From: Prochlorococcus sp. MIT 1223
GTDB lineage: Bacteria; Cyanobacteriota; Cyanobacteriia; PCC-6307; Cyanobiaceae
Assembly: GCF_034092465.1 (NCBI RefSeq)
Contig: NZ_CP139303.1
Coordinates: forward strand, 1,578,865 to 1,642,864
Direction of reading: 5' to 3'
DNA: 64,000 nucleotides
Part shown: in pieces, positions 4,843 to 7,953 of the stretch
Numbering within the stretch: position 1 is the stretch's first letter
Layout: each line of letters opens with the position of its first letter
Notes under the pieces: model-generated
The model's database searches: none
Told to the model about the DNA's origin: nothing
The model's input: the letters and a program-made list of their open reading frames with translations, nothing else
Program-made: the position numbers and the translations under genes

Positions 4843-5919
4843 ATGCAAACCTACGGAAATCCAGACGTCACCTATGGGTGGTGGGCTGGTAATGCAGGTG
4901 TAACCAATCGTGCTGGGAAATTCATTGCAGCACACGCCGCTCATACCGGTTTAATTGCTTTCGCCTGCGGTGCAAGCACAATTTGGGAAATGTCTCGCTT
5001 TGACCCATCTATTGCAATGGGCCATCAAAGTTCGATTTTCCTTGCCCATCTTGCTTCAATGGGTATTGGTTTTGATCAAGCAGGAGTATGGACTGGCGAG
5101 AACGTTGTTTCTGTAGCCGTTGTTCATTTGATTGCTTCAATGGTTTATGCGGGTGGAGCACTTGCCCACTCATTGCTTTTTGATGGTGATTTGGCTGATG
5201 GCCCAGTCCCTACTACTAAAAAGTTCAAACTCGAATGGAATAATCCTGATAATCAAACTTTTATTCTTGGCCATCACCTCCTTTTCTTTGGGGTAGCAAA
5301 CATTTGGTTTGTTGAATGGGCGAGAATTCATGGAATCTATGACCCTGCAATAGATGCTGTTCGTCAGGTTGAATACAACTTGAATTTGAACGCTATCTGG
5401 AGTCATCAATTTGATTTTTTATCAATAGATAGCCTCGAAGATGTTATGGGAGGTCACGCTTTCCTTGCTTTTGCTCAAATTGCTGGTGGTGCTCATCACA
5501 TTGCAACAAAAATGGGCTCAGGCTTGTTAGGTGAATACACAACATTCAAAGGTTCGAAAGTTCTATCAGCTGAAGGGATTCTTTCCTTCTCTCTAGCCGG
5601 CATAGGTTGGATGGCAATTGTTGCAGCATTTTGGTGTGCACAGAACACAACTGTTTATCCTGAAGCTTGGTATGGAGAGCCATTAGCCCTCAAATTTGGA
5701 ATCTCTCCTTATTGGGTTGATACAGGAGATGTTTCAGATTGCACTTCATTCTTAGGACATACAACTAGAGCTGCTCTAACAAACGTTCACTATTACTTTG
5801 GCTTCTTCTTTATTCAAGGACACCTATGGCACGCAATACGCGCTTTAGGGTTCGACTTTAGAAGTGTTACCAGAGCAATTAGTAACCTTGATAATGCAAG
5901 AGTTACGCTTGAAGGTTAA
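4843..5919 (+). CDS. pcb: Pcb divinyl-chlorophyll a/b light-harvesting protein (first copy)
   Basis: Pcb proteins are six-helix thylakoid antenna proteins of the CP43/IsiA family that bind divinyl chlorophyll a and b and feed the photosystems. This copy has 358 aa, the usual Pcb length, and lacks the large lumenal loop of CP43. It starts with the family N-terminus MQTYGNPDVTYGWWAGNAG and carries several conserved chlorophyll-ligand histidines, for example in AAHAAHTGL, MGHQSSIFLAHL, LGHHLLFFG and HYYFGFFFIQGHLWHA. The C-terminus (RVTLEG) differs from the copy at 6910. Whether it serves photosystem I or II cannot be told from sequence alone. A strong terminator follows. Two internal tracts are almost base-identical to the second copy. 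Confidence 0.95.
   Translation: MQTYGNPDVTYGWWAGNAGVTNRAGKFIAAHAAHTGLIAFACGASTIWEMSRFDPSIAMGHQSSIFLAHLASMGIGFDQAGVWTGENVVSVAVVHLIASMVYAGGALAHSLLFDGDLADGPVPTTKKFKLEWNNPDNQTFILGHHLLFFGVANIWFVEWARIHGIYDPAIDAVRQVEYNLNLNAIWSHQFDFLSIDSLEDVMGGHAFLAFAQIAGGAHHIATKMGSGLLGEYTTFKGSKVLSAEGILSFSLAGIGWMAIVAAFWCAQNTTVYPEAWYGEPLALKFGISPYWVDTGDVSDCTSFLGHTTRAALTNVHYYFGFFFIQGHLWHAIRALGFDFRSVTRAISNLDNARVTLEG
5256..5453 (+). repeat. pcb conversion tract A, copy 1
   Basis: This 198-base segment matches 7326-7523 at all but one base (G at 5359 against A at 7429), while the flanking parts of the two pcb genes differ at many synonymous sites. It encodes the block from about LGHHLLFFG to DVMGG. The pattern is best explained by recent gene conversion between the paralogues. 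Confidence 0.85.
5590..5660 (+). repeat. pcb conversion tract B, copy 1
   Basis: This 71-base segment is identical to 7645-7715. It encodes the stretch around LAGIGWMAIVAAFWCAQNTT. Sequence on both sides differs between the two genes, including at third codon positions. Confidence 0.85.
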
Positions 5920-5938
5920 TTAAGCTTCGAACGACAAG

Positions 5939-5975
5939 AATAAAAAAACCTCGTATTAATGCGAGGTTTTTTTAT
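5939..5975 (+). terminator. bidirectional rho-independent terminator after pcb
   Basis: A CCTCG/CGAGG stem with a 7- to 8-base loop is flanked by A7 on the left and T7 on the right, so it can stop both the pcb transcript and the convergent Nif11-peptide transcript. Confidence 0.9.
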
Positions 5976-6005
5976 TCTTCTTTTTTTTATTGAAAACTTA
6001 GAGAT

Positions 6006-6188
6006 TTATTTCTCCCCCCAACGTTCTCCGATTTCAAATCCCCAAGATTTGGCAAGATCAACTACTTCCTGGTGATTGGAACAAGATGCTAATCGTTCTT
6101 TTCTCTCGGCAGATTTTTCTATTGACTCAATCATTTTTTTTAAACTATTAACTTTTTTGATGAATTTCTGGAGATCTTGTTCTGACAT
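6006..6188 (-). CDS. Nif11-domain peptide
   Basis: This 60-residue protein matches the Nif11 leader-peptide domain: MSEQDLQKFIKKVNS at the N-terminus, a charged helix, then HQEVVDLAKSWGFEI where the family usually shows EVVAIAKEAGF. Nif11 domains occur in nitrogen-fixer proteins of unknown role and as leaders of ribosomally made modified peptides, including the prochlorosin-type leaders of some marine picocyanobacteria. Here the domain fills almost the whole protein: no double-glycine cleavage site and no Cys/Ser/Thr-rich core peptide follow it, and no modifying enzyme lies nearby. The ATG at 6188 gives the standard domain start; an in-frame TTG nine bases upstream is less likely. It converges on the pcb terminator. 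Confidence 0.75.
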   Translation of the reverse strand: MSEQDLQKFIKKVNSLKKMIESIEKSAERKERLASCSNHQEVVDLAKSWGFEIGERWGEK

Positions 6189-6262
6189 TTGGATCAATTT
6201 GATGGGTGATTTATGACTTAATAGTTTTATAGGTTTATTATTAGAAAAATAAATTTAAAATA

Positions 6263-6520
6263 GTGGGCACAAGTAAAAAAGACGAAGCTAAAACTATTCT
6301 TCGGTTTATCAGAGAGGAGCTCAGATATCTTGATGAAGACTTACGTAATGATGGATTGCTTCCTGAAGTGACATCTTTGAGATCAATTTATGAGCAGTTA
6401 TCTGCATTACATGATTCGATAGAAGGAAAGCCTAAAAAAGTTTTTAAGCCTGATGGGGACAAAGGTAAAAAAATCAATAATGAAACTGAAAAATCTCAGA
6501 AGAAGAATAAGTCTATTTGA
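6263..6520 (+). CDS. hypothetical charged protein (85 aa), GTG start
   Basis: This is a soluble 85-residue protein with an N-terminal helical part (AKTILRFIREELRYLDEDLR, then LLPEVTSLRSIYEQLSALHD) and a lysine-rich disordered tail (KKVFKPDGDKGKKINN onward). The start appears to be GTG. The stop codon is immediately followed by the ATG of the tiny membrane protein at 6521, so the two may be translated together. No family is recognised. Helix followed by basic tail suggests a small binding or adaptor protein, which is inference. Confidence 0.55.
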   Translation: MGTSKKDEAKTILRFIREELRYLDEDLRNDGLLPEVTSLRSIYEQLSALHDSIEGKPKKVFKPDGDKGKKINNETEKSQKKNKSI

Positions 6521-6909: not shown

Positions 6910-7953
6910 ATGCAGACTTATGGAAATCCAAGCGTTACATACGGTTGGTGGGCTGGAAATGCTGGGGTAACAAACCGATCAGGTAAGTTTATCGCCGCTC
7001 ATGCTGCTCACACTGGATTAATAGCTTTTGCTGCTGGTGCAGCAACTTTGTGGGAACTCGCACGTTTTGATCCTTCAATCTCTATGGGTCATCAGAGTTC
7101 GATTTTTTTAGCTCATCTCGCTTCTATAGGTATTGGTTTTGATGAAACTGGATCTGTATGGACCGGGGCTAATGTTGCTTCAGTAGCAATTGTTCACCTT
7201 GTAGCGTCAATGGTTTATGGGGCTGGAGGGCTTTTGCACTCTCTGTATTTCAGCTCAGATATGCAAGAAAGTGACGTTAAGCAAGCTAGAAAGTTTAAAC
7301 TCGAATGGGATAATCCCAAAAATTTAACTTTTATTCTTGGCCATCACCTCCTTTTCTTTGGGGTAGCAAACATTTGGTTTGTTGAATGGGCGAGAATTCA
7401 TGGAATCTATGACCCTGCAATAGATGCTATTCGTCAGGTTGAATACAACTTGAATTTGAACGCTATCTGGAGTCATCAATTTGATTTTTTATCAATAGAT
7501 AGCCTCGAAGATGTTATGGGAGGGCATGCATTTTTGGCATTTCTTCAAATAAGTGGAGGTGCTTTGCATATTGCTCAAAAAACTGGCCAGTACACTAAAT
7601 ACAAAGGTGCTGGGCTTCTATCTGCTGAAGCAGTTTTATCTTGGTCTCTAGCCGGCATAGGTTGGATGGCAATTGTTGCAGCATTTTGGTGTGCACAGAA
7701 CACAACTGTTTATCCAACTGAGTTTTTTGGAGAGCCTTTAATTCAGAAATTTACTATTGCTCCTTATTGGATAGATAGTGGAGATTTTTCTGATAGCAAT
7801 GCTTTCTTTGGTCATAGCACAAGAGCTGCTTTAACAAACGTCCATTACTATTTTGGATTCTTCTTTATCCAAGGTCATTTATGGCATGCTCTTAGATCTA
7901 TGGGCTTTAATTTTAAAGACGTACTTAGTTCATTGAACGTTAAATCAGCATAG
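6910..7953 (+). CDS. pcb: Pcb divinyl-chlorophyll a/b light-harvesting protein (second copy)
   Basis: This is the second Pcb antenna protein, 347 aa, with the same six-helix layout and N-terminus (MQTYGNPSVTYGWWAGNAG). It differs from the first copy mainly in three places: the loop after the second helix (FSSDMQESDVKQARK against DGDLADGPVPTTKK), the helix IV-V loop (QKTGQYTKYKGAG, about eight residues shorter) and the C-terminus (LSSLNVKSA). These are the surfaces expected to decide photosystem partner or expression niche, which is inference. The central block shares base-identical tracts with the first copy. It is preceded by its own 278-base gap and followed by its own terminator, so the two pcb genes are probably separate transcripts that can be regulated independently. 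Confidence 0.95.
   Translation: MQTYGNPSVTYGWWAGNAGVTNRSGKFIAAHAAHTGLIAFAAGAATLWELARFDPSISMGHQSSIFLAHLASIGIGFDETGSVWTGANVASVAIVHLVASMVYGAGGLLHSLYFSSDMQESDVKQARKFKLEWDNPKNLTFILGHHLLFFGVANIWFVEWARIHGIYDPAIDAIRQVEYNLNLNAIWSHQFDFLSIDSLEDVMGGHAFLAFLQISGGALHIAQKTGQYTKYKGAGLLSAEAVLSWSLAGIGWMAIVAAFWCAQNTTVYPTEFFGEPLIQKFTIAPYWIDSGDFSDSNAFFGHSTRAALTNVHYYFGFFFIQGHLWHALRSMGFNFKDVLSSLNVKSA
7326..7523 (+). repeat. pcb conversion tract A, copy 2
   Basis: This tract is identical to 5256-5453 except for one base that changes Val to Ile (A at 7429). It is bounded on both sides by clearly diverged sequence. Confidence 0.85.
7645..7715 (+). repeat. pcb conversion tract B, copy 2
   Basis: This 71-base tract is identical to 5590-5660. 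The codons immediately downstream (ACTGAGTTTTTTGG against TGAAGCTTGGTATGG) already differ. Confidence 0.85.

Follow-up and report, generated by a model that had tools for sequence, protein, structure and literature searches.

Nif11 domains in picocyanobacteria are often read, and in genome mining counted, as leaders of natural-product precursors. The prochlorosins of picocyanobacteria are made with Nif11 leaders (PMC10783134), and among RiPP systems Nif11-derived peptides are described as precursors with leaders (PMC2887384; for both papers, in the text available to us). A 60-codon gene between two antenna genes of Prochlorococcus sp. MIT 1223 thus raises the question of what a Nif11 domain is for when its gene stops at the end of that domain. 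An earlier note on this DNA had proposed either a free-standing regulator or a relic leader. The window analyzed here is a stretch of 64,000 nucleotides of the source genome (G000), which is a single contig of 1,795,922 bp; its relevant features are collected in the table.

Features of the window around the nif11 gene (positions in the window)
Feature	Coordinates	Strand	Basis
Predicted free-standing Nif11 protein, cupin-less TIGR03890 form	6006..6188	-	ORF, PF07862, TIGR03890
Cys36-x-x-His39, codons 36-39	6072..6083	-	26/26 short, 32/32 two-domain forms counted
W-G-[FY]-x-I-x-x-x-W-G-[EDG] tail, codons 49-59	6012..6044	-	Short-form alignment
pcb chlorophyll a/b antenna gene, convergent with nif11, context only	4843..5919	+	TIGR03041
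Second pcb antenna gene, context only	6910..7953	+	TIGR03041
Terminator-like hairpin between convergent pcb (+) and nif11 (-)	5936..5979	.	Consensus match only
85-aa gene, divergent from nif11, no Pfam match above cut-off	6263..6520	+	ORF, Pfam

The open reading frame lies on the minus strand, with an ATG at 6188 and a TAA at 6008-6006, and encodes 60 residues; an alternative TTG start at 6197 would extend the protein to 63 residues. The Pfam Nif11 model PF07862 matches residues 1-57 at 52.5 bits (cut-off 23.8, E 6.1e-14), which is far beyond chance and bears out the description of the protein as almost wholly Nif11. The best family is TIGR03890 of NCBIfam (82.4 bits, 2.9e-23), with residues 2-60 aligned to positions 1-59 of the 171-position profile. 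The score stays below the TIGR03890 cut-off of 159.45 because the second half (profile 60-171) is missing: the protein matches the N-terminal half (profile 1-59), whereas it lacks the C-terminal cupin half and does not reach the total score, and we therefore regard it as a shortened form and not as a full member. Judged by its sequence, the 60-residue protein is the Nif11 half of the Nif11-cupin family in a cut-down form. In the two-domain proteins, a linker and the cupin start after the W-G-[FY]-x-I-x-x-x-W-G-[EDG] tail. A Pfam-A search (E<=0.01) of two of these proteins returned Nif11 and no cupin, thus 'cupin' is used here as the label given by TIGR03890. A separate cupin half was found neither in the whole source genome with the TIGR03890 profile (E<=1) nor in the first 14 kb of the window with a cupin profile, in agreement with the earlier suggestion that the protein is free-standing. 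The strand and the closer family TIGR03890 are additions to that account.

The distribution of the family was examined in a sample of 300 genomes of the same taxonomic family, 197 of them of good quality. At E<=0.001, TIGR03890 has a match in 264 of the 300 genomes and in 183 of the 197 good-quality ones, short and two-domain forms taken together, and 181 of the 300 lie above the two-domain cut-off. In 79 genomes from 15 genera, the best match has an E-value from 6e-26 to 2e-16, which corresponds to a lone Nif11 half; these genomes were picked by hand from the match table, without G068, whose match is of similar strength but which was judged to be a masked two-domain form. The five listed genomes of one genus (code g8), which are 95-99% complete, have no TIGR03890 match, against 183 of 197 among the good-quality genomes. 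One locus, L041 in G046, encodes a two-domain form whose second half has diverged and which scores 129.6 bits, below the cut-off; its cupin is possibly on its way out. A scan of genome_contigs returned one close relative, in Prochlorococcus AG-402-N21, and a partial match in Shewanella (39%, residues 1-43, E 2e-5). A phage origin was rejected, as phage records gave no match (tblastn E<=0.1) and viral contigs gave 12 pattern matches with no relative among them. The cupin-less Nif11 form is not described in the open-licence literature searched, mostly by title and the start of the abstract, and TIGR03890 is not mentioned in it.

All 26 short loci that were read contain intact open reading frames of 59-64 residues, which end at most seven residues after the last Trp-Gly. 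The set comprises 23 loci retrieved by a motif filter and three (G016, G060, G033) that the filter missed for their Gln at position 56; a frameshifted locus (L038), two partial or masked ones (L040 and L058) and L067, a near-copy of L064 that fits the pattern, were left out of the residue count. All 26 short forms share eleven residues, namely F9, K12, L16, C36, H39, V42, W49, G50, I53, W57, and G58. The same residues are kept in the 32 two-domain forms counted, except for Trp49 (30/32), which is also missing in further two-domain forms beyond those 32. Arg56 is not invariant (Arg in 23 of the 26 short forms, Gln in the three named above), and at position 55 the window protein carries Glu, in contrast to Arg or Lys in the other 25 short forms. 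Among nine pairs compared, five have a finite dS, with dN/dS of 0.19 (G000/G003), 0.09, 0.26, 0.21, and 0.12; three of these five dS values exceed 1, one being 2.75, near saturation, and dS is below 1 just in the two pairs with dN/dS of 0.09 and 0.26. These few pairs support purifying selection. Taken together, the conserved residues and the low dN/dS speak for a working protein and not for a relic.

A two-sequence AlphaFold2 model has helices at residues 3-25, 27-34, and 39-48 with a mean pLDDT of 84.6 (61 in the last ten-residue block), and places Cys36 and His39 where helices 2 and 3 join. Among solved structures, the best named match was 9zn4, a 'Nif11 domain-containing protein', at a non-significant E of 0.087, and a single-protein query gave no match below E 0.24; the structure comparison was uninformative, with 3 of 48 chains at Z >=2 and a best Z of 2.5.

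The origin of the short form can be read from the locus of its two-domain relatives, for which we compared 20 short-form and 20 two-domain stretches. All 20 two-domain contexts hold a cytochrome-c-like gene and a gene for a 112-aa protein, and most of them share the order PyrC, TrpA, AbrB-like, YCII, cytochrome-c-like, [nif11-cupin], 112-aa, DUF1232, and sigma factor, where PyrC, TrpA, and the sigma factor are what we take these genes to be from their sequences; the cytochrome gene lies several kb off in some Synechococcus-like genomes (G009, G045). In 4 of the 20 short contexts (G053, G019, G012, and G055), the short gene sits exactly between the cytochrome-c-like and 112-aa genes. The distance from its stop to the next gene is 55-131 bp in these four, and in the 13 two-domain genomes listed the corresponding distance from the cupin stop is 28-124 bp for 12, with G071 (713 bp) as the exception. 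Since the spacing after the short stop and after the cupin stop is alike, the cupin was removed and not left to decay. Searching 21 short contexts with the cupin profile gave no sign of this half (best E 1.3), with control matches of 1.2e-52 and 3.4e-36 for two sequences that are both among the profile's own 52 rows. Thus, the cupin was cleanly lost in place in G053, G019, G012, and G055.

The number of such losses was approached with two sets of trees. A concatenation of 12 genes from 22 of the 24 loci (LG+G4; G009 and G045 were dropped as too gappy), which holds the four in-place short forms as its only short forms, rejects a single clade of these four, with a log-likelihood 93 lower and an AU p of 6.6e-5. 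It needs three changes, two of them forced, and six of its rows differ in composition. G053 and G019 pair in this tree and may share one loss. A run under LG+F+R4 likewise puts the four short forms in three places, with weak inner forks. The second tree is based on SerA, which was sought in 33 genomes and yielded 29 full-length sequences, or 30 with that of the window; left out were G060, G042, and G014, in which no gene was found, and G055, in which a weak paralogue was the only candidate. For the 16 short-form genomes in this tree, six changes are needed, four of which are forced by well-supported branches, and a single clade of all 16 is rejected (AU p 0.0043). Eleven short-form genomes including that of the window form one clade (100/99), a group named after the tree had been seen. 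Several forks are weak, and the tree oddly joins G031 with G009, a pairing that hints at transfer. Because both trees reject a single clade, this truncation has most likely occurred more than once, though the pattern may also stem from one loss after which the cupin was regained, or from transfer of the short form.

The window gene itself has left the locus of its relatives: four other short forms have the two-domain neighbourhood and it does not. In the source genome, the ancestral site is empty, with the cytochrome-c-like and 112-aa genes adjacent (G000:C1:9682-10397, 62 bp between matches). A gap of 43-81 bp at this site was found in eight more of the 18 genomes queried (G003, G010, G065, G078, G039, G056, G060, and G016). 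In four, the gap is larger (234 bp in G042, 500 in G121, 787 in G031, and 1097 in G052) and TIGR03890 matches at another place; the flanking genes lie far apart in G094 and G017, and at least one of them was not found in G027, G033, and G108. As the window copy is off the ancestral site, its orthology is drawn from its sequence and from its being the sole strong match in the source genome.

In its present position, the short gene is flanked by pcb genes on both sides in G000 and G003, adjoins one in G065, and is found about 3.5 kb (G010) and about 5.1 kb (G121) from pcb; no pcb was found in the remaining short contexts fetched. The terminator-like hairpin is a single find against a shuffle mean of 0.5. 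Homologues of the divergent 85-aa gene lie beside the short nif11 gene in G003 and G108, and about 1.3 kb and 2.7 kb off in G052 and G027, respectively. With homologues in 5 of 21 contexts, the window's included, this gene may be a companion of the short nif11 gene. The two pcb genes of the window share a 103-bp identical run (5256-5358 and 7326-7428) inside a stretch of 179 identical bases out of 180 aligned, where the other full 60-column blocks have 18-51 identical bases; in the same two genes of G003, the longest identical run is 23 bases. The pair in the window looks like the product of a recent gene conversion.

We consider it probable that the 60-residue protein is a cut-down Nif11-cupin descendant, kept by selection and working as a free-standing module in trans. 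It would descend from a picocyanobacterial Nif11-cupin protein (TIGR03890) that presumably shed its cupin half immediately behind the ...WGE/D motif in at least two lineages, one of them the Prochlorococcus clade of the source genome. The Nif11 half would have been kept as a stand-alone gene, which in G000 appears to have moved between two pcb genes. Nif11 leaders act as docking modules for enzymes, and on this analogy we propose that the protein serves as a small module of three helices that binds, in trans, to another cellular protein which is itself conserved. The binding surface of the module might be formed around Cys36-x-x-His39 and the Trp-Gly tail; the conserved residues would belong either to the interface or to a small sensor site. 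The cupin would be an accessory part, ligand-sensing or oligomerising, that could be dropped in streamlined genomes. A regulator role, as the earlier note had suggested, is possible. In a bolder form, which we hold tentatively, the family would be a widespread regulator with a non-RiPP role, whose working unit is the 60-residue Nif11 domain with its Cys-x-x-His and Trp-Gly tail, and whose cupin sensor was cut out at one and the same boundary in several independent events as genomes were streamlined.

A more specific alternative is that the protein is a small redox- or metal-responsive regulator, in which metal binding or oxidation at Cys36-x-x-His39 alters the binding of a partner linked to photosynthesis or electron transport. 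Consistent with it, Cys36 and His39 are present without exception in the forms counted, Cys is absent from the two further Nif11 proteins of the source genome, the gene beside the ancestral site is cytochrome-c-like, and the transcript of a Synechococcus 'Nif11 domain-like protein', whose membership in this family is not established, is up with iron in the available text of PMC9723758. A monomer offers just two candidate ligands, however, and the conservation may be structural, given the modelled position at the joint of helices 2 and 3; we regard this alternative as rather unlikely.

Readings that return the protein to RiPP biosynthesis are not supported by the model scores or by the search for four RiPP enzyme families. 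That the free Nif11 protein serves as a leader in trans, helping an enzyme to modify other peptides, would fit the use of Nif11-derived peptides as leader-bearing precursors (PMC2887384, in the part available), and is improbable here. Confirming genome-wide what had been noted for the window, LanM (DUF4135) has no match in the source genome at E<=10, whereas the positive control G071 matches at 1.2e-107; LanC-like proteins, peptidase C39, and YcaO, the other three enzyme families covered by the search, have no match at E<=1. Among 27 further genomes, DUF4135 was matched in the control G071 and in none of the other 26, 25 of which carry the short form. A genome-wide search for Nif11 paralogues, likewise proposed in the earlier note, found two more Nif11 proteins in G000, of 71 aa (L003 1429-1644, ending in GEYT) and 88 aa (L004 1465-1731), neither of which contains Cys or Gly-Gly; the 71-aa protein resembles the '-GEYH/N-' group in the accessible text of PMC10783134.

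Still less probable is that the protein is the relic of a RiPP leader whose core peptide and enzymes were lost, although it has a Nif11 domain and a weak TIGR03798 match, and Nif11 leaders serve prochlorosins in picocyanobacteria according to the available part of PMC10783134. The absence of a core and of a cleavage site, as first described, holds: the protein ends in GERWGEK with the stop directly after the Nif11 domain, and contains no Gly-Gly site. The proposed profile check, in which PF07862 was matched above its cut-off, gave TIGR03798 26.6 bits against a cut-off of 32.3, far behind TIGR03890. The two-domain relatives have a cupin half in place of a core, length and motifs are constant across the 26 intact short forms, and dN/dS, where measurable, is well below 1 and points to purifying selection; the relic-leader proposal is already contradicted by these results. 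Gene fission is common, yet a split protein whose cupin half survives as a separate, cooperating gene has the least probability of all and is contradicted at the sensitivity used, which a strongly diverged cupin could escape, since TIGR03890 finds lone cupin halves in G229 and G298 and none in G000 at E<=1, nor any at E<=0.001 in 25 short-form genomes.

The case shows a widespread Nif11 protein without a core, of which, most likely on more than one occasion, just the Nif11 domain has been left; it would allow a general function of this domain to be separated from its leader function. The 60-residue form is small enough for direct study and offers a minimal protein for a binding-partner screen.

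Among known systems, the leader family TIGR03798 of the prochlorosin type shares the Nif11 domain with the window protein, which differs in scoring below the cut-off of that model, in having neither Gly-Gly nor a core, and in its C-x-x-H and W-G...W-G pattern, in a genome where none of the four RiPP enzyme families was found. Unk10 of the chromatic acclimation (CA4) island of marine Synechococcus is likewise a Nif11-domain protein encoded near light-harvesting genes; it is of unknown function, is longer (107-118 aa), belongs to other strains, and is likened here by its description in the available text and not by sequence (PMC3877281). The closest system is TIGR03890 nif11_cupin: profile positions 60-171 are absent from the window protein and its gene lies away from the two-domain locus, whereas the two have the first 59 profile positions and the conserved residues in common.
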